In this document: positions 2,516-20,380 of the stretch, in pieces
How positions within the stretch are numbered: the stretch's first letter is position 1
Layout of the letters: every line of letters begins with the position of its first letter
DNA from: Planctomycetota bacterium
GTDB lineage: Bacteria > Planctomycetota > Planctomycetia > Gemmatales > Gemmataceae
Length of the DNA stretch: 64,000 nt
NCBI GenBank assembly: GCA_016191165.1
Contig: JACPPF010000089.1
Coordinates: 62,001 to 126,000 of the forward strand
Direction: 5' to 3'
The notes under the pieces: generated by a model
Seen by the model: the letters and a program-made list of their open reading frames with translations, nothing else
Databases searched by the model: none
Told to the model about the DNA's origin: nothing
Program-made: the position numbers and the translations under genes

Positions 2516-4813
2516 ATGCGCACTTTCACGATTTTCCTCCTCGCGTTTCTGACCTCCAAGGTCGCCCACGCCGGCCCCACCAACACCTGGACCAAGCTCG
2601 ACAAGGCCCAGATCGTCGGCCGGCGCTGGGATGTACCCGTCGGGTTTGACCCGGTCGCCAAGCGCTTCCTGGTCCTCGGCGGACGGTCCTCCTACGGCGA
2701 CTATCGCAAACCGCGCTCCTACGATGTGCTCACCTTGCAAAACGAGCAATGGGAGAGCACCTTTCCGCCTGGCAAGAACTGGGGGCCGAAGGTCGGCGCT
2801 TGCAAGGCGCCTGCCTGGAAGGGTGAAACCTGGGGCTTTCGCGATCTCGAAGGCAACACCCGGCCCAACTGGACCATCTACGGAACCTTCTCTCTCGGGC
2901 AAAAATTTGACTACGATCCCGACACCAAAGCGTTCTACTTCTACGCCGGCGGCAGCACGTTCAGATACGAACCAGCCCAGCGCAAGTGGACCGATCTGAA
3001 ACCCGCGAGCCACCCCGAAAAAGAACTCGGCGGCATTCTGCTCTGGAGCTCAATAGTCTACGATTCCCACAACAAGCAATTCGTCTTATTCGGCGGCGGC
3101 AACGTGCAGACCGAACGCGGGGACCCCGGCACCTGGACCTACTCCCCCTCGAAAAACGCCTGGACTCAAATCAAACTGGACAAACAACCCCCGCAGCGTG
3201 CCAACGCGCGATTGGCATTCGACCCTGTCAACAAAAAAGTCGTCCTCTTCGGCGGCGATCAGCTCGATCAACTCCTCTCCGATACCTGGGCCTTTGACGT
3301 GGTGAAACAGCAATGGGAAGAAATCATCCCGGAAAACGTGCCGGCCCCGCGTGCCGGTCATGCCCTCTGCTGGCTGCCCAAGGCGAAGAAGATTCTGCTG
3401 ATCGGTGGATACACCTATACCTCGACCACCAGCTATGTCGCGCCGCTGTATCAGCGCTTGCCCGTGGAGATGTGGACCTTCGATGTCGCCACGAAGCGCT
3501 GGAGCTTGGTCGTGCAAGCCGGGGCGAAGGAAGGGCCCGATGCGCGGGCGAACTTTTTCCTGAGCGCTGCCGTCGATGGCGACGACAACGTTCTAACGCT
3601 AGGCCAAACCGGAGCGTGGACCTGCGCCGTCGATGCCACGAAAAGCGACCCGGCCGCGGCAAAGAAGATCGGCGCGAAGCCGGGAACCGTGGAGACCCGG
3701 GCCGAGTCGCATGACCCCACCTGGTACTTCAAGGCGGTACCACCGGCGGACGAAAAGAAGGTTGCCGACGATTTGAAGAACTTGCCTGTCAACGAATGGA
3801 CGGTCAGGCCCACGCCGAAACGGCCCCTGATGAACATGGACTGGGGCTCGGCCGTCTTCGCGCCGGATCACGACATGATCCTACGTTTCTCCGGCGGGCA
3901 TTCGGCGTACAGCGGCACGGCGCCGATCGTCTACAACGTCAAGACCGATCGGTACAACCTGCCGTTCGCGCCGGAGTATCCGCTTGAGTATGTCTATTCC
4001 AACGATCAGGTGCACGGGGAATGGAGCTTCAAGCAGAACCCGTGGATGACGGGGCACACTTACAAATCGACCGGCTACGACCCGAACCTGAAGGCGCTGG
4101 TGTTCGCGCCGCACGAGTATACTTATTTCTTCGATCCGAAAACCTCCGCATGGTCGCGTTCGCCCGGGCGCAATCCGTATCGGGCCAACTTCTACGTCGT
4201 GACCGTTTGCGCGACGCCCGGGGGGGCCGTCGTCTGGGCCAATCGCCGTGACGGAGGCGCGGGCGCCTTGTGGCGCCTCGATGCGGCGTCGAAGGCCTGG
4301 AAGCCGTTGCCCCTCAAGGGTGATTTGCCCGCAACCGGCGCTGACCATCATGGCATGGCCTACGATTCCAAACGGGATCGCCTGCTGCTCTTCAGCGACC
4401 TGGGCAAAAACCGCGGCGATGTGTTGCAATACGATTTCAAGTCGGGGACGACACGCTGGCTGAACGCCGGCGGTAAGGACAAGGCGATGGCGCAAGCACG
4501 CGAAACGGCCTACATCCCGGAAGCTGATGCGGTACTGATCGGAGCGCATGTCAAAGGAAGCGCGGCCTGGCCCCTTTATGATTGCGGGACCAACAGCTGG
4601 CGTGCCGTGGAATTGAAAGGCGCCGACCCGGTGGGAAAGAAATCATTCAACAACTCGATGGGATTGGTTTACGATCCGCATCGCCGGCTGGTGTGGGCCG
4701 TGGGGCAGTACAGCCAGGTTCATGTATTGAAGCTCGATGCCAGGTCGGCGAAGGCGCTTGAAAAAAAAAGCCGCTTGCGGCTTAGCGTTCGCATGGTGTC
4801 AGGCGAGCGTTAA
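2516..4813 (+). CDS. Secreted Kelch-type beta-propeller protein
   Basis: A 765-residue protein with an N-terminal signal peptide (MRTFTIFLLAFLTSKVAHA). Repeated Kelch-like blades follow, recognisable by pairs such as VLFGGGNVQ, VVLFGGDQLDQL, ILLIGGYTY and repeated W-T/W-F strands, in two blocks (residues ~40-370 and ~420-745), suggesting two propellers. Such proteins are extracellular or periplasmic and bind ligands or carry oxidase-like active sites; no catalytic residues could be assigned. The last ~14 codons (from 4770) come from a palindromic repeat found elsewhere between genes, so the tail LRLSVRMVSGER is probably acquired. Confidence 0.75.
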   Translation: MRTFTIFLLAFLTSKVAHAGPTNTWTKLDKAQIVGRRWDVPVGFDPVAKRFLVLGGRSSYGDYRKPRSYDVLTLQNEQWESTFPPGKNWGPKVGACKAPAWKGETWGFRDLEGNTRPNWTIYGTFSLGQKFDYDPDTKAFYFYAGGSTFRYEPAQRKWTDLKPASHPEKELGGILLWSSIVYDSHNKQFVLFGGGNVQTERGDPGTWTYSPSKNAWTQIKLDKQPPQRANARLAFDPVNKKVVLFGGDQLDQLLSDTWAFDVVKQQWEEIIPENVPAPRAGHALCWLPKAKKILLIGGYTYTSTTSYVAPLYQRLPVEMWTFDVATKRWSLVVQAGAKEGPDARANFFLSAAVDGDDNVLTLGQTGAWTCAVDATKSDPAAAKKIGAKPGTVETRAESHDPTWYFKAVPPADEKKVADDLKNLPVNEWTVRPTPKRPLMNMDWGSAVFAPDHDMILRFSGGHSAYSGTAPIVYNVKTDRYNLPFAPEYPLEYVYSNDQVHGEWSFKQNPWMTGHTYKSTGYDPNLKALVFAPHEYTYFFDPKTSAWSRSPGRNPYRANFYVVTVCATPGGAVVWANRRDGGAGALWRLDAASKAWKPLPLKGDLPATGADHHGMAYDSKRDRLLLFSDLGKNRGDVLQYDFKSGTTRWLNAGGKDKAMAQARETAYIPEADAVLIGAHVKGSAAWPLYDCGTNSWRAVELKGADPVGKKSFNNSMGLVYDPHRRLVWAVGQYSQVHVLKLDARSAKALEKKSRLRLSVRMVSGER

Positions 4814-6022: not shown

Positions 6023-7468
6023 CTATTTGACCGCCTTGGCTTGCCAGTCGTCCAGGAGTTCGCCGATGTCCTTGTAGTTGAAGTCGAGGTTGGCGAGTTC
6101 GCAGCCGAGGTCGATTGCGCGCTGGGTTTCTCCGGTCTTGGCATAGCCGATGGCCAGGAGATACATGGCTTCTTTTTTCAGGGCGGAGTCGCCGGCGCCG
6201 AGGTGTTGCAGGGCGTCTTCGAGGTTTCGCTGGGCCAGGCGCCAGTTTTTGCGCGACTGGAAACAGAGCCCGAGGTAGAAGAGGGCCTTGCCGTGGTGGC
6301 GCGGATCGGTGCGGATGGTTTGCAGTTCCTTGATCGCCTCGTCGGTTTGGCCGGCGCGCAGGAGACGTAAGCCCAATTCGAACCGCGCAGCCGTGTCGGT
6401 CGGGTAGCGGTCGGAGCGCCGGCGATGCAATTCCAGTTCGCGCGTATTGATCTCCTTGACCAGCCCGACGCGGATCTGCCGAAGGGCCGGGTCTCCCGGG
6501 TTCTTGCCCAGGCGTTCCTCGGCCAGGGCCAGGTCGCGCCGGAACGGCTCGATGTCGAGATCGAACAATTCCTGGGTGATCTCGAAGTGATTCCCGGTGG
6601 CCGCCAGACTTTCCTGCAAGACCTCACGGGCCTTGTCGAGTTGATCGGCGCGCTTGTAGACGGTGGCCAGCTGCAGGTGGGCGTTGGCCAGTTTGGGATT
6701 GCTTTTGATCCGCTCGGTGAGGGTGGCGATTTCGCGGGCGTAGCGGTCGCCTACCACCAGGGCGCCCTCGCCGGTCTGCGCCAGGGCGGGCTGCTCGGTG
6801 GCGGTCTCCGTCTCGGCTGGCGTCAGCGGAGTCGGCGCCTCGCCCTTGACGGCTTCCTCGTAACGCCCCTTGGCGATGGTCGCGTTGGCGGCCAGGTCCT
6901 TCGCCTTCCGATGCGCCTCCTGATCGCTCGGCGCGGCCTGCCGCACGAGCTCCCATAGCGCGATCGCCTGATTGAAATTCCCGCGCTGCTCGTAAAGACG
7001 CGCCAGCGGGCGGTTGACCTTGGGATTCCGCGGATGAAAGGGCCGAATCTGCTCCAACGTCCACAGGGCGTGGTCAGGCCATTCCAGTTCCTCGAACGCC
7101 TGCGCCATCACCAGATGTGCGGAAAGATCCCACGGATTGCGCATCAGGATCAACTCGGCCTGGACTAGCGCGTCCTTGTAGTTGCCCCGCATCATGGATT
7201 TCTTGAGTGTCAATCGACCAAAGACGGAGCGGAGATAGGCGAGCGCCTGCCCCCGCCCATTGTTTTGATAGCGGGCCCGCTGGGTTTGACGCAGCGCCTG
7301 CCGGTAGATGATGTTCGCCGGGTCGATCCGGCAGCAGTCGAGCAAGAGCTGGGAACCATAGTCGTGATCCCCGGCTTTGAGCACCTGGTTGGCGCGCTCG
7401 AATTGCCCGGCCGCGGCGCGGCGCTGTTCCGCGGTCAGTTTCGGCAATGTGGTCGCAGTGTCAGCCAT
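6023..7468 (-). CDS. TPR-repeat protein
   Basis: A 481-residue soluble protein starting MADTATTLPKLTAEQRR. Start 7468 was chosen because upstream codons to 7621 are low-quality sequence and overlap the end of the next gene. Tetratricopeptide-like helices run through the protein: residues ~25-60, ~95-190 (DALVQAELILMRNPWDLSAH, ALWTLEQIRPFHPRNPKVNR, AIALWELVRQAAP) and ~250-470 with a final block of AIKELQTIRTDPRHHGKALF type. A variable acidic/Pro linker separates the two blocks. No enzymatic domain is present, so a scaffold role is likely. It lies just downstream of the sigma54-type activator, in the same direction. Confidence 0.75.
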   Translation of the reverse strand: MADTATTLPKLTAEQRRAAAGQFERANQVLKAGDHDYGSQLLLDCCRIDPANIIYRQALRQTQRARYQNNGRGQALAYLRSVFGRLTLKKSMMRGNYKDALVQAELILMRNPWDLSAHLVMAQAFEELEWPDHALWTLEQIRPFHPRNPKVNRPLARLYEQRGNFNQAIALWELVRQAAPSDQEAHRKAKDLAANATIAKGRYEEAVKGEAPTPLTPAETETATEQPALAQTGEGALVVGDRYAREIATLTERIKSNPKLANAHLQLATVYKRADQLDKAREVLQESLAATGNHFEITQELFDLDIEPFRRDLALAEERLGKNPGDPALRQIRVGLVKEINTRELELHRRRSDRYPTDTAARFELGLRLLRAGQTDEAIKELQTIRTDPRHHGKALFYLGLCFQSRKNWRLAQRNLEDALQHLGAGDSALKKEAMYLLAIGYAKTGETQRAIDLGCELANLDFNYKDIGELLDDWQAKAVK

Positions 7469-7617
7469 GGTCCGGCGGTCCCTACGTCCGCACGATGCGT
7501 CTTTTTTGGGATTCCCTAAAGTATCATACTTGGAAGCGGCGTCAAGAGGGGAGAAAAAAGTGTTTTCGGAAAACCGATTTCCATAGGCCGCTCGCCTGGA
7601 GCGATCGGGGGCGTGCC

Positions 7618-9006
7618 TCACATCCGCGCCGATTCCTTGAGCAGCCCGTACTTCTTCATCTTCTTGTAGAGCGTTACCCGGCTAATGCCCAGGGCGTCGG
7701 CGGCGCGCGTACGGTTGAAACCGGCGCTCACCAGCGCCCGCTGAATCACGCCACGCTCGGCATGATCGCGCTGCTGATGCAACGAATCGCCGAGAATCTC
7801 CTCGTCGTCGAAGATCGGCGCGCACGATTCCTGCACGGCGTCAGGCAAATGCGCCGGCAGCAACTCGGGACCGGAGCACATCAACACGGCGTGCTGAATC
7901 ACGTTCTCAAGCTGACGCAAATTCCCCGGCCAGGAAAACCCCTCCAGGGCCGAAAGTGCGTCGGGATGAATCTCGAAGATTTCCTTGGCAAACTTGCGGG
8001 CAAAGCGAACCGCCATGCCACGCGCCAGCGGCTCGACATCGCTGACCCGTTCGCGCAGCGGCGGCAGGTGGAAGGACATCACGTTGAGCCGAAAGTAAAG
8101 ATCGGCCCGAAACTTCCCGAGGGCGACCGCCTTTTCCAGGTCGATATTGCTGGCGACGATCAGCCGGGCCTCGCAGCGCTGGGTCTCGGTGCTACCCACG
8201 GGCTCGAACTCGCCCGTTTCGATGACGCGCAAGAGCGTCGCCTGTTGCTCCAGGGCCAGCGTGTCAATTTCGTCCAAAAGCAGCGTCCCTTCGCCCACCG
8301 CGGCGAACTTGCCGACCTTGGTGCGATCGGCGCCGGTGAACGCGCCTTTCATGTGCCCGAAAAATTCGCTTTCGATGAGGTTGGCGGAAATGGCGCCACA
8401 GGAGATGGTCATGAAGCGATGCTGCCGGCGCGGGGAATAGTCGTGCATGAACCTGGCGAGATAAGTCTTGCCCGTGCCAGTCTCGCCATTGATCAGCACG
8501 GTGACGTCATGGCTCGCGCCCAGGGCAATGCGGTCCGCCAGCGGAAGGAGCGAAGGGGTCAAGGCAAGCAGCCGGCGGCTGAGCATCTCCTCCAGGCCTT
8601 CGTCGTAGGCGAAGCGAAACTGCCGGCCAGGGTCCAGATCGCGCACCAGCGTCGTCAAACGTTCGGCGGCATCAGGCCAACGCAGCCGGCGCGAAATATA
8701 CGGATCCAGCGCGGCCAGAGTCGAATTCGCTCCCAGGGCATCAAGTAGCACGACCATCGCCGGCCAACGCTGCAGCGACAGCTGCTGCACCAGCCGCCTG
8801 GCGAGAGGCAAATCCGCTTGCCTGGCGACACCCACCAGAAGCAATCCGTCCGAATCGCACGTCAATTGCTCGGCCACGTCGGCGTACGTCCCGGCCAACG
8901 CGGGCTGCCCCAGCGCCTGCGCCAGGTGTTCCTGCGCGGCTTCCATGAAGTCCGCGTCATCCGCAACCAGCACCACACGACGATCTGCCATGTTGACACG
9001 ATCCAT
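7618..9006 (-). CDS. Sigma54-dependent (NtrC-like) transcription activator with degenerate receiver
   Basis: A 462-residue protein with the order receiver-like domain (~10-125), AAA+ sigma54 interaction domain (~145-380) and Fis-type helix-turn-helix (~418-462). The AAA+ part has Walker A GETGTGKT (174-181), GAFTGA (221-226), Walker B LLLDEI (242-247) and RADLYFRLNV, so ATPase activity and RpoN contact should be intact. The receiver keeps the acidic pair (ADDAD) but where the phosphoacceptor aspartate is expected it reads GLLLVGVAR, with Gly. Activity is therefore probably controlled by something other than phosphorylation. Start 9006 or 8991 are both possible. No adjacent histidine kinase is seen. 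Confidence 0.88.
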   Translation of the reverse strand: MDRVNMADRRVVLVADDADFMEAAQEHLAQALGQPALAGTYADVAEQLTCDSDGLLLVGVARQADLPLARRLVQQLSLQRWPAMVVLLDALGANSTLAALDPYISRRLRWPDAAERLTTLVRDLDPGRQFRFAYDEGLEEMLSRRLLALTPSLLPLADRIALGASHDVTVLINGETGTGKTYLARFMHDYSPRRQHRFMTISCGAISANLIESEFFGHMKGAFTGADRTKVGKFAAVGEGTLLLDEIDTLALEQQATLLRVIETGEFEPVGSTETQRCEARLIVASNIDLEKAVALGKFRADLYFRLNVMSFHLPPLRERVSDVEPLARGMAVRFARKFAKEIFEIHPDALSALEGFSWPGNLRQLENVIQHAVLMCSGPELLPAHLPDAVQESCAPIFDDEEILGDSLHQQRDHAERGVIQRALVSAGFNRTRAADALGISRVTLYKKMKKYGLLKESARM

Positions 9007-11233: not shown

Positions 11234-11355
11234 CTACTACCAGCTGTTCAACCGCCGGCTCAGTGTTTTCATATAATGCTGGGGTATTCTCAAAGAAACT
11301 CGCCGCGCCGGCGAATAATTGATGGCTCGAACCCTTTCGTTGGGAGATGGCGTTC

Positions 11356-12270
11356 ATGTCGTCCGCACCGGCTCCGAATAACGACCCGGTTCAACCCCCG
11401 GCGCCCACCAGGCCCGGCGACACCGGCACGCGCTCGACCGACCGCATCATCGTCTACCGCCATTCCAACATGTTCTACTGGTGGCCAATCTGGGTCCTCG
11501 GGTTCGTATTCGCCGCCATCACTTACTTCGACGGCAGATATCTCGCCATCGTCCCCGGCAACACCCGAGCGGTCGAGGATGTCGAGGTCGAGGTGGAGCC
11601 TGGCAAAAAAGAAAAGCGCAGCGTGCTCATCCTGCCGGGGAAAAAGACCCACGCCAAGATCAAAGTTGGCGACGGCGCGGACGAAATCGTGCAACCCACG
11701 ATTCGCGTCACGCACTTCCGCACGCTCGGCAGCATCTACGTGGGGGTGCTCTTGCTGGTGATCGTCATCACGACCATCTCCATTCGCGGGCTCTGGACGG
11801 TGCTTGTCTTCGTCTCGATCATCATGTTGATTATCATTCTTGCCGCGGGCGGCTGGCTCGGGTCGATCTTCCACCGGATTCACGATCTGTCGATTTTCAT
11901 CAACATGGGGGGCTATCTGCTCATCTCCCTGGTCTTGTTCATTTTGTGGCTGGTCAACTTTCTCGTCATGGATCGCCAGACCTACATGATCTTCACGCCA
12001 GGCCAGGTCCGCATCCGCGTGGAGATCGGCGGCGAGGAAACCGTTTACGACACCACGGGCATGGTCGTGCAAAAGGAACGCGCCGACCTGTTCCGCCACT
12101 GGATTCTCGGCTTCGGCTCCGGGGATCTGCTCGTCAGGCCCGTGGGTTTGGGCCATGCCATCGATTTTCCCAACGTCCTGCGCGTAGGGGGAATCGTGAA
12201 AAAGGTTGAGACGATGATGAAGGAAAAGGTGATCCTCCAATCGCCCGAAGCGAAACCGCCGAGTGTTTAG
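11356..12270 (+). CDS. Membrane protein with C-terminal PH-like domain, paralogue 1
   Basis: A 304-residue membrane protein beginning MSSAPAP. The ATG at 11356 is preferred over 11347 because GGGAG lies 9 bases before it and directly abuts the earlier ATG; the paralogue also begins MSS. Membrane segments are at ~28-50 (FYWWPIWVLGFVFAAITYF), ~117-150 and ~170-200. The soluble C-terminus (from RQTYMIFTPGQVRIRVEIGG) contains a conserved block, DLFRHWILGFGSGDLLV, that looks like a bacterial PH-like module. It is the first of two tandem paralogues (next gene) spaced by 68 bases. No function is known. Confidence 0.7.
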   Translation: MSSAPAPNNDPVQPPAPTRPGDTGTRSTDRIIVYRHSNMFYWWPIWVLGFVFAAITYFDGRYLAIVPGNTRAVEDVEVEVEPGKKEKRSVLILPGKKTHAKIKVGDGADEIVQPTIRVTHFRTLGSIYVGVLLLVIVITTISIRGLWTVLVFVSIIMLIIILAAGGWLGSIFHRIHDLSIFINMGGYLLISLVLFILWLVNFLVMDRQTYMIFTPGQVRIRVEIGGEETVYDTTGMVVQKERADLFRHWILGFGSGDLLVRPVGLGHAIDFPNVLRVGGIVKKVETMMKEKVILQSPEAKPPSV

Positions 12271-12338: not shown

Positions 12339-13235
12339 ATGTCATCCCCGACACCTGAATTCGGCACCCCTCCCGCCGCCGCTCCCGCGCCCCAATCAAC
12401 TCCACCGTCGTCGCCGCTGCGCCGGGAAATCCGCGTCGTCAGCCATTGCAGCCTTTTCTACTGGTGGCCCGTCTGGGTGGTCGGGTTCATGATGTGGATT
12501 ATCACGATGTTCAGCGGGCACGTCATGGCCATTGTGCCTAGCGGAAGCACCGCCGTGCACAACGCCATCCCCAAGGAGGACGGCAAGAAGGACGATACGC
12601 CGCGCGACGCCATCGTCGTCCCCGCGAAGTCCAAACTACCTCACGAATCAGGCAACAAGGACCGCCTCGAAAATCCCCATCTCGCCATGAGCAACAATAA
12701 AAACCTGGGCGTCCTCTTCGTGGCGGTTCTGTTGCTCGTCGTCGTGATTACCAACATTCCACTGCGCGGCCTGTGGTCGGTGATCGTGATTGTTTTCGTC
12801 ATTTCTCTCGCGATCATCTTCGCCCTCCTGGAATGGTGGACCATCATCCTGTCGTGGCTCAGCATCCTCGACATCCGCATCAATGCCGCCGGGTATTTTG
12901 TCATCTCGCTGGTCTTGTTTATCCTCTGGCTGGTGGTGATGCTGCTCTTCGATCGCCAAATCTACATGGTCTTCACGCCGGGGCAGATGCGCGTGTGCCT
13001 GGAAATCGGCGACGCCGAGACCGCCTATGACACCTCGGGCATGACGATCCAGAAGCAGCGCAGCGATCTGTTCCGCCACTGGATCCTCGGCCTGGGGTCC
13101 GGCGATCTGATCGTCAAAACCGCCGGGAGCCAAACCCATGAATTCCACATGCCCAACGTGCTTTTCATTGGCCGAAAAGTGAAGGAGATTGAAGAGATGC
13201 TGCGTTCCCGCCAGGTGGTGACGGGCGGGAGCTAA
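12339..13235 (+). CDS. Membrane protein with C-terminal PH-like domain, paralogue 2
   Basis: A 298-residue paralogue of the preceding gene: the same FYWWPVWVVGF first membrane segment, the same central pair of membrane segments (GVLFVAVLLLVVVITNIPLRG and the following one) and the near-identical C-terminal block DLFRHWILGLGSGDLIV. The loop between the first and second membrane segments is the most divergent part (acidic/Lys-rich, about 70 residues). The two were created by tandem duplication and may form a hetero-oligomer. A family C palindrome follows the stop codon at 13271. Confidence 0.7.
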   Translation: MSSPTPEFGTPPAAAPAPQSTPPSSPLRREIRVVSHCSLFYWWPVWVVGFMMWIITMFSGHVMAIVPSGSTAVHNAIPKEDGKKDDTPRDAIVVPAKSKLPHESGNKDRLENPHLAMSNNKNLGVLFVAVLLLVVVITNIPLRGLWSVIVIVFVISLAIIFALLEWWTIILSWLSILDIRINAAGYFVISLVLFILWLVVMLLFDRQIYMVFTPGQMRVCLEIGDAETAYDTSGMTIQKQRSDLFRHWILGLGSGDLIVKTAGSQTHEFHMPNVLFIGRKVKEIEEMLRSRQVVTGGS

Positions 13236-13270: not shown

Positions 13271-13326
13271 GCCGCTTGCGGCTTAGCGTTGGCAAGTTGG
13301 CTCGCGAACGCCAAGCCGCAAGCGGC
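13271..13326. repeat. Palindromic element, family C
   Basis: GCCGCTTGCGGCTTAGCGTT (13271-13290) pairs with 13307-13326 with a single mismatch. It lies between the convergent membrane-protein and kinase genes, a position suited to a bidirectional terminator. Confidence 0.88.
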
Positions 13327-13334
13327 AAACAGGG

Positions 13335-15920
13335 TCAGATGCAGATTTCCGCGTGCGAGCGGCGATGCGTCGGCATCCGGAACAGGCCGCCGACCTCGTA
13401 CCAGCCGTCGGCGCAGCGCTTCACGCGCACGAGCGTCGCCGGTATCTTGATGATTCCCTCGCCATCGGGATGAGGCAGCTCGATCAGCACTTCCGAGGTT
13501 CCCAGATCATGCGGCAGATAAAACCCGAGGCCGGTGTGCGATAGGTCCTTGCCGCGACACTCGATCGGCTCGTCGGGCCGGCCGTCGCTACCAATCGGGA
13601 TGATCGTGATCGGGTGAGGCCATAACAGACGTTCCTGGGTGCGTTTCTCGGAGTTGACGAGAAAATCCTGCTGCAGGCCTTCGAAGATTTCGTTTCCCAT
13701 CCGGTCATAGAGCTCGGCTGCTTTTTTTTTGGTGCAGTGTCGTGCCCGCAGCCGAGCGTTGATCTCGATCGGTGTCGCGGACATCAAGTTGACGCGTGCC
13801 ATTTCGATCGTCAGTTCGAGCCGGGCCGGCTGGCCCCACCAGCGTTGCCAAATGCTGCCCGGCAAGTCGAGTTGGACGGTGGAGCTGGAATCGTCCTGGC
13901 ACACGATCCGCGCGCCGCGCTGTTGGCAAAAGACCTGGAGGCGTTCCTTGGCGGCGCCGAGGGGCAGGCCAGCGATGAATTGAAACCGCAGATGGTCGCC
14001 AGCCTGGTCCGCGCTCGCCACGACGGCCTTGGGCGTCTGGGCCTGTCCCCCACCGGACTGAATGAGCCTGGCAAGGAGGTCGGCGTAGTCGGTCGGATCA
14101 ATGCCCGTGTACACGGTCTTTTTCTTGGCGCCGCGCTGCGTGGCGATCAACCTGGCAAAATGGTCCGGCTGCTCCTGCAACTGCTTGTCGAGTTCGGGTG
14201 AGGTGCCTTCCAGGGCCAGCAGCATCTCGGTACAATTCGCCCACCGCTTGAGCGGGTCGGGATCGAGCGCCCGGGCGATGACCGCGCGATCCGGATCGGG
14301 CAGGCGATCGAGGCTGGGCGCCAGGCCGCTCGCCAGGTACGCCTTGGGCGCCAGGCCGCGAAATGGATGGACCCCGGTCAGCATCTCCGCGTAGATCAAC
14401 GCCAGGCTATACTGATCGCAATGCCGGCCCGGCAAGGCGGTAAACAGGTCCGGGGCCGCATAACGAATGTTCCGCTGCGCGATATCCTGACCAGCCGGCG
14501 ACCACAGGAGCTGGGCGTAACCGAACTCCGCTAACTGCAACCAGCCATGATCGAGGATCAGATTGCGCGGATTGAGGCCCAGATGCTGAACGCCATGCTG
14601 CTGGTAAAGGTAATCGAGCACCTCGGCCGCGGCGCGCACGTATTCGACGAGTTCCCCGCGCGGGATGCCTGGCTGCTTGCGCGCCTGGCACTGATGGGCC
14701 CGCGTCCGCAGCGTTTCACGCACCGGATCGGTGACAAAAACGACCCGCCCCGGCTCGACGTGGACCGGTTTCCGCGCCAGCACCGCGGGATGCTGGATGC
14801 TTTGCAGACGCGCGAGGGTTTCCCTGAGTTTACTGGCGCCAAGACCTCCCAGGCCGAACAGGATTTGCACGTCTTTCTTGTTCCCGTCCGGCCCTTGCGC
14901 TCGCCATACCTCCAGGATCGGACTGTTGCTGGCACATTCCAAAAAGCGATGATCGGCCAACACACCCGCGGGCAGGTTAGGTGTGCAAGCCCCCCGCGGC
15001 GGCCGCGGCGTGTCGCCGAGGCGAGTGACGACGGTCTCGTCGGCAGCAGGTTCTTTTTTCGGCGCATCGAGCGTCGCCGGCGCCGCGGTAACTTCCGCGT
15101 GCAGCGCGCGAATGAAATCCTGGCACGAGGCGAAGCGGTGCTCCGGGTTCTTCGCCAGCGCCCGCGCCACAATCGCCCGGTCATGCGCCGGCAACGCCTG
15201 CAAGTCCGGGTCCTGTTGCGTGTGCTCCAACAACAACTGACGCAGGTTCTTGCCCCGGAAAGGCAGCGTCCCCGTCAACAGTTCCTGATAGACGATCCCC
15301 AGGCTGTATTGATCGCAATGCCGGCTCAGCTTGCCCAAAAACAACTCCGGCGCCGCGTAGAGCGGCGTCACCGCGCTCATCGCCGCTTGCAATTTCGCGG
15401 TGACGGCGTCCGAAAGGCTGTTCACCAGTCCAAAGTCGGCCACCTTCACGTGATTGCTCACCAGAAACAAGTTCCGCGGCTTGATGTCCAGGTGCTGCAA
15501 ATCGAACTTTTGATTCAACAGATCGAGCACCTCGGCAACCTCGCGCAGGTAGCCAAGCAATTCCTCGCGCGGCACTCCGGCGACGCCCCGGTTGAGGTAG
15601 TGTTCCCAGAGTTCGTGCAGATTCTCGTCCGCCAGCTCGGTGACAATGACAAGCTCGCCCGCAACGACCTCGACGCGATCGATGGAAAGCAGGAAGGGAT
15701 GGCGGATGGATTTGATCAGCTGAAGCGCCCGCAGTTCCTCCTCGGCATGGACGCTGCTGTTGCCGAAACCGTTGAGCGAACCGTAGACGAACTTGACGGC
15801 CTTGAAGATGCCGCCGGGGGCTTCGCATTTCCAGACCTCGCCGAACCCGCCGGCGCCGAGGCGCTCCATGAGGCGGTAACCGCGGATCGGCTCGGCATCG
15901 GGACGTTTTTCGACCGGCAT
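13335..15920 (-). CDS. Hanks-type Ser/Thr kinase - pseudokinase - PilZ protein
   Basis: An 861-residue soluble protein. Residues ~14-275 are a kinase with Gly-loop GAGGFGEV (22-29), AVK (41-43), HLDIKPRN (143-150), DFG (162-164) and APE, so probably active. Residues ~320-570 are a second kinase fold with the same helices, but it reads VQIL where the ATP lysine is expected, HLGLN for the HRD aspartate and AEFG for DFG: a pseudokinase. Residues ~640-750 are unassigned. The C-terminus (~758-850) is a PilZ domain with RTQER (760-764) and DLSHTG (792-797), the RxxxR and DxSxxG signatures for cyclic di-GMP. This suggests cyclic di-GMP control of phosphorylation. The kinase and pseudokinase halves look like an internal duplication. 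Confidence 0.88.
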   Translation of the reverse strand: MPVEKRPDAEPIRGYRLMERLGAGGFGEVWKCEAPGGIFKAVKFVYGSLNGFGNSSVHAEEELRALQLIKSIRHPFLLSIDRVEVVAGELVIVTELADENLHELWEHYLNRGVAGVPREELLGYLREVAEVLDLLNQKFDLQHLDIKPRNLFLVSNHVKVADFGLVNSLSDAVTAKLQAAMSAVTPLYAAPELFLGKLSRHCDQYSLGIVYQELLTGTLPFRGKNLRQLLLEHTQQDPDLQALPAHDRAIVARALAKNPEHRFASCQDFIRALHAEVTAAPATLDAPKKEPAADETVVTRLGDTPRPPRGACTPNLPAGVLADHRFLECASNSPILEVWRAQGPDGNKKDVQILFGLGGLGASKLRETLARLQSIQHPAVLARKPVHVEPGRVVFVTDPVRETLRTRAHQCQARKQPGIPRGELVEYVRAAAEVLDYLYQQHGVQHLGLNPRNLILDHGWLQLAEFGYAQLLWSPAGQDIAQRNIRYAAPDLFTALPGRHCDQYSLALIYAEMLTGVHPFRGLAPKAYLASGLAPSLDRLPDPDRAVIARALDPDPLKRWANCTEMLLALEGTSPELDKQLQEQPDHFARLIATQRGAKKKTVYTGIDPTDYADLLARLIQSGGGQAQTPKAVVASADQAGDHLRFQFIAGLPLGAAKERLQVFCQQRGARIVCQDDSSSTVQLDLPGSIWQRWWGQPARLELTIEMARVNLMSATPIEINARLRARHCTKKKAAELYDRMGNEIFEGLQQDFLVNSEKRTQERLLWPHPITIIPIGSDGRPDEPIECRGKDLSHTGLGFYLPHDLGTSEVLIELPHPDGEGIIKIPATLVRVKRCADGWYEVGGLFRMPTHRRSHAEICI

Positions 15921-16002: not shown

Positions 16003-16060
16003 CGCCGCTTGCGGCCTGGCGTTCGCGCGGCGCTCCGCGAACGCCAGGCCGCAAGCGGCG
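16003..16060. repeat. Palindromic element, family C (perfect 25-bp arms)
   Basis: CGCCGCTTGCGGCCTGGCGT begins the left arm (16003-16027); the right arm (16036-16060) is its exact 25-bp complement, with an 8-base loop. It lies upstream of the kinase gene and immediately downstream of the Cys-rich secreted protein gene, both on the minus strand. Confidence 0.92.
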
Positions 16061-17506: not shown

Positions 17507-18763
17507 TTACCGAGCCAGCAACAGGCCAGTATTTTGACCCCGCAGGCTCTGCACCGTGCTGGAACCCAGCAAGGTCACGCCCAGCACCCGTTCGACGGGG
17601 GCAAGCATCTTGTCCAGATAATTGTAGACCGTGATCAACGGGTCGGCGGAGACATAGATCCGATCGCCCGGCAACAGCTGATAGTTCGTCGTCGTATCGG
17701 CCCCTTGCGTAATGGCTTTCCAGTGCACCGGCAGCACCTGGCTGCACGGATGACCCGCCGGCGACGGACGCGCGACCCAGATCTTCTTCAGCGACGCCAC
17801 CGGCGGCAGACCCTGCACCCGGCTGATCGCGTCGAGCACCGTCTCGCCTCCCGTCGCCGGCAACGCAATCACCTGCTGGCCGTAGCCCGCGCCGTCGGCG
17901 ATGATATAGATCTTTCGGCTGTTGTACGCGAACACATCCACCGATACTTGCGGGCTAACCAGGTAGGCGCTCAGGTGATTCTCGATGACACACTTCACCT
18001 GCCCCAGCGTCATGCCGGCGACGAACACCGAACCGTACATGCCCAGGCTGATCGTGCCATCGGGCCGCACGAGATGCTGCCCGGCAACGTTCTGCTGGGC
18101 CCGCATTTGCACCAGGGCGACACTGACGCTGAAGTCGGATTTGACCACCTTGCGAATGTAGTCGGCAATGGACGCCTGCGTTTGATCGACCGTCAGGCCG
18201 GCGACGCGGATCGGCAGCAGCGTGTTGCCCAGGTTGATCGTGCCTTCCGGCGAGATCATGTACAGCCCCTTGATCTGGTCCTTGAACGCGCCGACGACTT
18301 CGACCTGCAGGACTTCCATCGCTTCAAGCTTGTACGGCCCCTTGGGGACCAGGCGGTTGGCCTGGATCAAGAGGATGTCCGGCGCCGCGACCCGATGCGG
18401 CGGATGGGTGATTCGATTCAATTCGGTGGGCGGCGGCATGTTCATGGGAGCGCCCATGCCGGCGGGCATCGGCGTGCCGAGTCCCGGTTGTTCGACGATG
18501 AATTCACCAGGTTGTCCCTGGACCGCCTGCGGCGCGCCCGTGAAGCGCGCCTGCGGTGTATAGGAGGCCTGCTGAATGCCGTTTTTGTTCGCCGACGGGT
18601 TGTTGGCCGACTGCGGATAGGAGCCACGCGGGCTGTTGATATACCCGCCGGATGGAGGCAGCATCGGCGGCTCCGAGCTGGTGTTCATGCAACCCGCCAG
18701 GGCCAGGCATGTACCCAGCAGGACGACGGCTACGACCCATTTTCGTTGGCCCTTGCGCACCAT
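17507..18763 (-). CDS. Outer-membrane polysaccharide export lipoprotein (Wza/SLBB type)
   Basis: A 418-residue lipoprotein starting MVRKGQRKW, with AAGGAG 7 bases before the start. Lipobox LALAGC places the lipidated cysteine at residue 25. After a Pro/Asn-rich linker comes a polysaccharide export (Poly_export) domain, PDILLIQANRLVPKG to MISPEGTINLG, and then two or more SLBB-like segments with repeated PDGTISLGMYGSVFVAGMTL and LVSPQVSVDVFAYNSRKIYI units, ending with a DRIYV (GDRIYVSADPL) motif. It should form part of a channel exporting capsule or exopolysaccharide. The divergent glycosyltransferase gene at 19.2 kb fits that role. Confidence 0.85.
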   Translation of the reverse strand: MVRKGQRKWVVAVVLLGTCLALAGCMNTSSEPPMLPPSGGYINSPRGSYPQSANNPSANKNGIQQASYTPQARFTGAPQAVQGQPGEFIVEQPGLGTPMPAGMGAPMNMPPPTELNRITHPPHRVAAPDILLIQANRLVPKGPYKLEAMEVLQVEVVGAFKDQIKGLYMISPEGTINLGNTLLPIRVAGLTVDQTQASIADYIRKVVKSDFSVSVALVQMRAQQNVAGQHLVRPDGTISLGMYGSVFVAGMTLGQVKCVIENHLSAYLVSPQVSVDVFAYNSRKIYIIADGAGYGQQVIALPATGGETVLDAISRVQGLPPVASLKKIWVARPSPAGHPCSQVLPVHWKAITQGADTTTNYQLLPGDRIYVSADPLITVYNYLDKMLAPVERVLGVTLLGSSTVQSLRGQNTGLLLAR

Positions 18764-19231
18764 GTTCCGCTCCTTGCAACGATGATCCCAGCCGCGCCCG
18801 CCTTGGCGCAGCCTGTTCCGCGACAACCGGCGCCGGCGCGCCTTGTGCCACTTACAGAATGCTGGTTTGATGATGTCCCAAATTCGTGACGATCCCACTG
18901 CTTCCCCAAGCAGTCTCCGCCCACGCCCAGCGCCGACGACCGCGTCTTGTCGGGGTCGCTGCGCCGTGCCGTTGCCGAAAATCGTCAATTCGAGACGCCC
19001 CCTATAGCCAAGGACAAAGGAAACGCAAGATCAAAAGCACGATTTTTTGGCCGCCACTTGCGGCGCAAGCGGCGTACCGGAGAACGAAACCTGTCGGCGT
19101 TCGTTCCATTCCGCGCCGTTTGCCTGCCTTGCCAGACGTCGTGGCTTCTCGGCAAACCGGGCTTGATCCTTGGGGGGCGAAACGCTTATATGCCGAATGC
19201 CCAGGTCCTTTCCTCAAACCGGACGCCGCCT
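18764..19231. other. Intergenic region between export lipoprotein and glycosyltransferase genes
   Basis: This 468-base divergent gap holds no gene I can support: the in-frame extensions of both neighbours into it are Arg-rich and lack ribosome binding sites. A weak family C-like half-site, GCCGCCACTTGCGGCGCAAG, is near 19059-19078. Promoters for both genes are expected here, but no convincing -35/-10 pair was found. Confidence 0.5.
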
Positions 19232-20380
19232 ATGCGAATCTGTCTGTATACCGAGACGGCTCTGCCCAAGGTGGGCGGACAGGAAATCGTCGTGGACGCG
19301 CTGGCGCGCCAGTACCAGGCGCTGGGGCATCAACCCGTCGTCTTCGCCCCCCGGCCACGCAAGCTCTCGCTGCGCGGGACCAGCTACCCCTATGAAGTCG
19401 TGCGGCACCCGCGCTTTTACTCCACGCAGTATTTCGTGCCGTGGTATCGGCGTTATCTTCGCAATGAATATCTTCGGCAACCGTTTGACGTTTTGCATTG
19501 CCACGGCATCTACCCGCCCAGCTTTCTGGCGGCACTGGTGAAGCCTGACCTGGGCGTGCCGATCGTGGTCACCAGTCACGGCGGCGACGTTTACGAAAAG
19601 AACGTGCGCCTGCGGAAGCCGTTGATCGTCGAGCGTTGCGTCGAGGGTTTGCGTTGCGCCAGCGCGCTGGTGGCGATCAGCCGATTCACGCGTGCCGGCT
19701 TCGAGCGGCTGTGCCCGGAAGCGTCGCCGCGCATCGTCGATATTCCCAACGGCGTCAACGTCGCCGTTCATGCCGAGCGCGTCGCCCGACCGACCGATTT
19801 GAATTTCAAGTTCCAGCCCGGCTCGTATGCCGTCTTCGTGGGTCGACTGAAATACCGCAAGGGAGTCGATGTTCTCCTGCGCGCGCTGGCCAGGTTGCCG
19901 GACAACATGCCAGGCCAGCTCGTCATTCTCGGCGACGGCGATGAGCGGGCCTTTCTCGAAATCCTGAGCGATCAGCTCGGTTTGGCCCGGCGCGTTCGCT
20001 TCCTCGGCACCGTGACCGGCCCGGCCAAGACGTACCTGGTGCAAAACGCCCGCTTCGGCATCGTCCCGTCGCGCCAGTGGGAGGCGTTCGGCCTGGTGGT
20101 TCTGGAAGGATACGCCTCGGGCTTGCCGATGATCGCAACTGACATGCCCGGCCTGGCCGATCTGATTCAGCCGGAAGTCACGGGGCTGCTGGCGCCGCCC
20201 GAATCCCCCGAGGCGCTGGCAGGCTCGCTGGAACGACTCTTCACGGACGACGCGCTCGTCCAGCGCATGAGCCACCAGGCTCGCCGCGTCGTTCAACAAT
20301 ACGACTGGCGCAATATCGCTCTTCGCCACCTGGACCTTTACGAACATTTGCGTGGCGGCCGCCGCGCCCTGGCGGCGTGA
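19232..20380 (+). CDS. GT4-family glycosyltransferase
   Basis: A 382-residue glycosyltransferase of GT-B fold, starting MRICLYTETALPKVGGQE at 19232; the N-terminal glycine loop (PKVGGQE) directly follows the start, so upstream frames are excluded. The N-terminal acceptor half includes FDVLHCHGIYPPSFLA. The C-terminal nucleotide-sugar half has FVGRLKYRKGVDVLLRAL and the EX7E signature in SRQWEAFGLVVLEGYASGLP. The last residues are the usual YDWRNIALRHLDLYEHL helix. It should transfer a sugar from an activated donor in polysaccharide or glycolipid assembly, consistent with the neighbouring export lipoprotein. The donor is unknown. Confidence 0.88.
   Translation: MRICLYTETALPKVGGQEIVVDALARQYQALGHQPVVFAPRPRKLSLRGTSYPYEVVRHPRFYSTQYFVPWYRRYLRNEYLRQPFDVLHCHGIYPPSFLAALVKPDLGVPIVVTSHGGDVYEKNVRLRKPLIVERCVEGLRCASALVAISRFTRAGFERLCPEASPRIVDIPNGVNVAVHAERVARPTDLNFKFQPGSYAVFVGRLKYRKGVDVLLRALARLPDNMPGQLVILGDGDERAFLEILSDQLGLARRVRFLGTVTGPAKTYLVQNARFGIVPSRQWEAFGLVVLEGYASGLPMIATDMPGLADLIQPEVTGLLAPPESPEALAGSLERLFTDDALVQRMSHQARRVVQQYDWRNIALRHLDLYEHLRGGRRALAA

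Follow-up and report, generated by a model that had tools for sequence, protein, structure and literature searches.

Ser/Thr kinases and cyclic di-GMP (c-di-GMP) signalling are usually studied separately in bacteria; to our knowledge, an input has been suggested for few bacterial pseudokinases, and the KA1 domain is known only from eukaryotic kinases. One described protein that joins the first two subjects is Pkn1 of Myxococcus xanthus, a fusion of a kinase and a PilZ domain, the latter predicted to be unable to bind c-di-GMP, and a further PilZ protein of the same organism, PlpA, carries the PilZ motifs and is reported not to bind the nucleotide (PMC8316039). Tubulin-like domains are mentioned in a survey of planctomycete kinases whose main text has neither PilZ domains nor pseudokinases (PMC11032199), and a 2025 review of bacterial pseudokinases makes no mention of PilZ, c-di-GMP or planctomycetes (PMC12599244).

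Here we describe a gene in a 64,000-nucleotide stretch of DNA (herein referred to as the window) from a planctomycete of the order Gemmatales that encodes an apparently active kinase, a pseudokinase, a KA1-like domain and a PilZ domain in one chain, and that probably lets c-di-GMP steer protein phosphorylation, judging from its sequence and that of its relatives. A preliminary description of the window knew of no commonly described protein with the order kinase, pseudokinase, PilZ. That statement survives for the full kinase-pseudokinase-KA1-like-PilZ order, for which our literature search found no description (most subscription papers lay outside its reach), but not for the kinase-PilZ fusion as such, which is known from Pkn1 (PMC8316039). 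The gene and its parts are as follows:

13335..15920, minus strand: whole gene, kinase-pseudokinase-KA1-like-PilZ, 861 aa (open reading frame and translation; start common to orthologs)
15096..15878, minus strand: active-type Ser/Thr kinase, residues 15-275 (Pfam Pkinase, 156.8 bits)
15486..15488, minus strand: catalytic aspartate D145 of the HLD motif (invariant in alignment A1 and in all first-kinase domains)
14205..14957, minus strand: pseudokinase, residues 322-572 (second Pkinase stretch; own clade in the tree)
14577..14579, minus strand: G448 at the HRD aspartate site (no aspartate there in 34 pseudokinase domains)
13662..14039, minus strand: KA1-like domain, residues about 628-753, beta-alpha-beta4-alpha (AlphaFold2, VIA-align)
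13380..13649, minus strand: PilZ domain, residues 758-847 (Pfam PilZ above cut-off; fold matches)
13629..13643, minus strand: RxxxR motif, R760-R764 (R760TQER764; in 32/35 relatives)
13530..13547, minus strand: DxSxxG motif, D792-G797 (D792LSHTG797; [DN]xSxxG in 32/35 relatives)

The minus-strand frame is open from an ATG at 15920 to a stop at 13335, and the starts of its orthologs align with its own (MPVEKRP.., MPLEKRP..). Pfam matches Pkinase in two stretches and PilZ over residues 758-846. The kinase, pseudokinase and PilZ domain lie where the preliminary description had placed them, whereas the domain of about 125 residues ahead of PilZ was missing from its list. The full-length model has a mean pLDDT of 78.6, low-confidence linkers at residues 278-311 and 573-585 and a pTM of 0.40, at which the domain arrangement is unreliable and inter-domain contacts are unreadable; contacts between kinase and pseudokinase were dropped for this reason. 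The first Foldseek match of this model, the pseudokinase-kinase pair of TYK2 (4oli), arises because two kinase folds share one chain and implies no interface.

The N-terminal domain has the hallmarks of a Hanks-type Ser/Thr kinase (PF00069), combining a match to the Pkinase profile with the Lys, Glu, Asp and Asp residues within a full set of motifs (glycine loop GAGGFG, K43, E62, HLD145xK147xxN150 and D162FG); it is a non-RD kinase, with HLD in place of HRD. All catalytic motifs had been read as present, and indeed the nine scored catalytic positions are all intact, both here and in 22/22 first-kinase domains of the family. The nearest kinase domains (52-54% identical) are those of two planctomycete kinase-tubulin fusions, L064 and L065. 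Both of these genes (L064:3229-6978 and L065:2775-6656, each on the minus strand) encode a kinase fused to Tubulin_2, in proteins of ~1250-1300 aa.

The second kinase fold has no glycine loop, and each of the three losses first ascribed to it can be assigned to a residue: Q352 replaces the ATP lysine, G448 replaces the HRD aspartate and E465 (in E465FG) replaces the DFG aspartate. The HxDxK lysine is likewise replaced, by N450, in the catalytic-loop sequence HLG448LN450P. The HRD aspartate and HxDxK lysine are missing from the second domain of every family member (22/22), whereas the ATP lysine is kept in 12 and gone in 10, and the DFG aspartate is kept in 13 and gone in nine. Since the HRD aspartate is gone in every pseudokinase, its loss is a family trait, and a kinase fold that consistently lacks this residue (0/22 keep it) is a pseudokinase; in the window protein all of these residues are gone, which suggests that ATP binding has decayed further in that branch. 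A maximum-likelihood tree of 71 kinase domains places the second domains and the stand-alone pseudokinases described below in one clade (support 100/100), separate from all active kinases, the kinase-tubulin fusions included. Within close pairs of proteins, dN/dS is 0.06-0.18 for the pseudokinase and 0.11-0.13 for the active kinase, values that are rough because dS is near 1 in some pairs and that are in line with purifying selection on the pseudokinase. We infer from these sequence comparisons that the pseudokinase is ancient and maintained by selection within the protein, with a predicted role in binding rather than catalysis.

Between the pseudokinase and PilZ lies a domain for which Pfam has no name. 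AlphaFold2 modelling of the C-terminal half (residues 580-861 with 22 relatives, mean pLDDT 82) predicts the elements beta-alpha-beta-beta-(short helix)-beta-beta-alpha over residues about 628-753, that is, the beta-alpha-beta4-alpha arrangement of ~100 residues, C-terminal to a kinase, that characterises the KA1 fold. The top VIA-align matches are indeed KA1 domains (SAD-B 5iri, Z 10.8, and SAD 4yom, 10.7; 102 residues of 105, rmsd 3.0), with Chk1 (5wi2, Z 9.8), AMPK (4eag, 9.7), CIPK14 and MARK3 also among the matches. Bet v 1/START-type folds come close to a tie (Z 9.5-9.8); size and strand count favour KA1 for the modelled domain. Sequence searches of Pfam and the PDB with profiles A5 and A6 returned no KA1 match, and with a fold match lacking a sequence match we name the domain KA1-like only and claim no membership. 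The best PDB sequence match, a phosphatase (E 0.2), was regarded as chance. Plain HRD-type Ser/Thr kinases (L206-L213, 435-577 aa) and HD-PAS-GGDEF proteins (L214 and L216, 725-770 aa), all from Planctomycetia, end in related domains, which makes this a recurrent C-terminal domain of kinases and c-di-GMP enzymes. KA1 domains are known regulators in AMPK/SAD/Chk1-type kinases.

A C-terminal part that was not a PilZ fold had been named in advance as grounds for rejecting the c-di-GMP reading; what is predicted is a six-stranded PilZ barrel (AlphaFold2, pLDDT mostly 89-94 over the barrel), whose nearest structures are c-di-GMP-bound PilZ proteins. The Pfam PilZ profile (PF07238) scores 25.3 bits on the whole protein and 28.9 on the C-terminal part alone (cut-off 22.5), and it matches 20 of 23 C-terminal relatives taken singly (best E 5e-10). 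Foldseek on the C-terminal half returned PlzA, YcgR, PP4397 and VCA0042, mostly with c-di-GMP, together with single PilZ domains of Alg44, and VIA-align returned c-di-GMP-bound PA0012 (8u0i; Z 8.8, 24% identity, 82 residues aligned at rmsd 2.8); the PilZ fold is supported by both sets of matches. The two motifs of the preliminary description, RxxxR and DxSxxG, are found as R760xxxR764 and D792xSxxG797. R764 is invariant in alignments A1 and A4, R760 is conserved in at least 90% of A1, and G797 is invariant. Both motifs occur together in 30/35 relatives and one or both are altered in 5/35, with the serine or the RxxxR spacing lost in L057, L058, L063, L179 and L185. R760 lies in a low-confidence loop (pLDDT < 50) ahead of the first strand and R764 at the edge of this loop; the binding switch of PilZ proteins is usually located in the loop before the first strand. 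By its motifs and predicted fold, the domain is a likely c-di-GMP sensor.

The distribution of the family was surveyed in 95 genomes of the taxonomic family, 102 of the order Gemmatales and 392 drawn from the phylum, by scanning open frames with our own profiles of three regions (second kinase, middle part, PilZ). This search for the same domain order, as the preliminary description had proposed, yielded 22 kinase-pseudokinase proteins in 16/102 Gemmatales genomes (two families; 15 genomes besides the source), two of them incomplete through contig-end truncation or a frameshift split, and the order is fixed across all 22. Outside Gemmatales, the few candidates scored per genome in the 392-genome sample were other kinases only, and none of those scored matched the C-terminal half. 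Conserved order, invariant residues and dN/dS together rule out a chance fusion or a decaying gene.

Partial versions of the architecture also occur. Stand-alone pseudokinase-KA1-like-PilZ proteins are encoded at eight loci (L181-L184 and L189-L192, 547-602 aa), none with a kinase gene directly adjoining, which rules out a partner kinase immediately beside them and indicates that the module can act without a kinase on the same chain; the full version is also encoded by some of these genomes. A single active kinase is followed by the middle domain and PilZ in L186, L188 and probably L196, and L217-L224 (660-780 aa) combine a single active kinase with PilZ, the middle domain being weak or undetected. 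A same-genus ortholog (L053:8652-11296, minus strand, genome G065) is broken by a frameshift where its pseudokinase ends, giving frames of 593 and 361 aa; it may be a pseudogene or an assembly error, and it was left out of the evidence on gene decay.

The source genome (7.2 Mb, of Gemmataceae type judging by the names of related loci) has four GGDEF and eleven PilZ matches, and GGDEF domains are present in 31/31 Gemmatales genomes tested, nine of which were picked for lacking the family. With GGDEF in every genome tested, c-di-GMP is very likely made; as a discriminating test GGDEF presence fails, the genes being there with or without the kinase-pseudokinase protein. Elsewhere in the source genome, a 416-aa kinase-PilZ gene (L066:5232-6482, minus strand) stands divergent from a 448-aa GGDEF-PilZ gene (6760-8106, plus strand), and this pair is a second link between a kinase and c-di-GMP. 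Near the window gene are a polysaccharide-export gene (17507-18988) and a glycosyltransferase gene (18947-20380). The genes flanking it do not recur next to the orthologs, even within the genus, with only isolated distant matches in L055 and L080, and control of exopolysaccharide was therefore given no weight as a reading of the neighbourhood. Other features of the surroundings are a pair of neighbouring ~300-aa proteins that look alike and have hydrophobic stretches resembling membrane segments (11347-12270 and 12339-13235, plus strand), neither with a Pfam match, and an intergenic, REP-like perfect palindrome at 16004-16059 of the window with arms of ~24 bases. A half copy of this palindrome lies at 13303-13326, such that the kinase gene has one on each side, and partial copies lie at 4770, 22362 and 36024 of the window; ~40 related copies were scored in the genome.

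We hypothesize that this is a Ser/Thr kinase controlled by its own C-terminal half via c-di-GMP, a reading to which we give roughly an even chance. In the proposed mechanism, c-di-GMP would bind PilZ at R760/R764 and D792xSxxG797 and order the loop ahead of the barrel, and this ordering would shift the KA1-like domain and the pseudokinase, which may serve as an adaptor or a brake on the N-terminal kinase. Phosphorylation of targets would then follow the level of c-di-GMP, the sign being either activation or inhibition. We infer such gating from the fixed domain order, the intact first kinase and the absent HRD aspartate of the pseudokinase (each in 22/22), the PilZ fold and motifs, the presence of GGDEF in the genome and the other kinase/c-di-GMP links in the genome and group. 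Counted against it are the low pTM of the full-length model, the altered PilZ motifs in 5/35 relatives and the stand-alone modules without a kinase in cis.

These last proteins also bear on a different reading, in which pseudokinase, KA1-like domain and PilZ together form a c-di-GMP-dependent docking or localisation module that recruits the kinase to a substrate or site and leaves its catalytic rate unchanged. A module found at eight loci with no adjoining kinase presumably functions without one in cis, and membrane binding is known for the KA1 domains of MARK-type kinases; free docking would not need a fusion, however, and kinase and module are fused with their order kept in most members. We consider docking possible but rather unlikely. 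The same separate existence of pseudokinase-PilZ relatives argues against a reverse flow of information, in which c-di-GMP binding would be tuned by the kinase, through phosphorylation of a partner or of the KA1-like/PilZ part. The same anatomy is compatible with this, and phosphosites could lie in the linkers at 278-311 and 573-585, but no conserved phosphosite was identified, and we regard this direction of control as very improbable.

It would also be conceivable for the PilZ domain to have ceased to sense c-di-GMP and to serve only protein-protein interaction, any regulation then having another input. PlpA, with full motifs and no binding (PMC8316039), is a precedent, and since it is reported as non-binding despite its motifs, PilZ motifs alone are no proof of binding; the five relatives with altered motifs point the same way. 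Set against this, both motifs persist in 30/35 proteins of a family in which the rest of the C-terminal part diverges to 14-30% identity, and diguanylate cyclase domains are found in every genome tested. A non-sensing PilZ domain is improbable in our judgement.

The Pkn1 layout, a single kinase directly with PilZ, differs from that of the window protein, where kinase and PilZ are separated by another kinase fold and the KA1-like domain; no pseudokinase or KA1-like domain has been described for Pkn1, whereas the window protein has both, along with both PilZ motifs. The 416-aa protein of the source genome (L066) similarly has an active kinase followed by a PilZ domain with RxxxR and DxSxxG, but its kinase is an ordinary HRD kinase of another subgroup, and no pseudokinase or KA1-like domain was found in it. 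In the kinase-tubulin fusions L064 and L065, Tubulin_2 stands where the window protein has pseudokinase, KA1-like domain and PilZ. The JAK/TYK2 pairs and plant tandem kinases share with it a kinase and a pseudokinase in one chain; in JAKs, however, the pseudokinase comes first, whereas here it comes second, and the placement of the domains in our model is unreliable. Because one conserved chain joins a Ser/Thr kinase to a likely c-di-GMP sensor with a pseudokinase between them, gating is testable with a single purified protein.

AMPK, MARK, SAD and Chk1 resemble the window protein in that a kinase fold is followed by a KA1-type beta-alpha-beta4-alpha domain, and AMPK also reads a nucleotide. 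They differ in being eukaryotic, in sensing the nucleotide through CBS rather than PilZ domains and in having no intervening pseudokinase, and the KA1-like domain here has no sequence match to theirs. If it is truly related to KA1, a regulatory domain of eukaryotic kinases would extend to bacteria. It is tempting, if doubtful, to see in the window protein a planctomycete counterpart of AMPK-type control, built from a kinase and a KA1-type domain with c-di-GMP (through PilZ) as the input in place of AMP and a duplicated, dead kinase as the relay; were this true, the KA1-like domain that kinases and HD-GGDEF proteins have in common would couple c-di-GMP directly to Ser/Thr phosphorylation.
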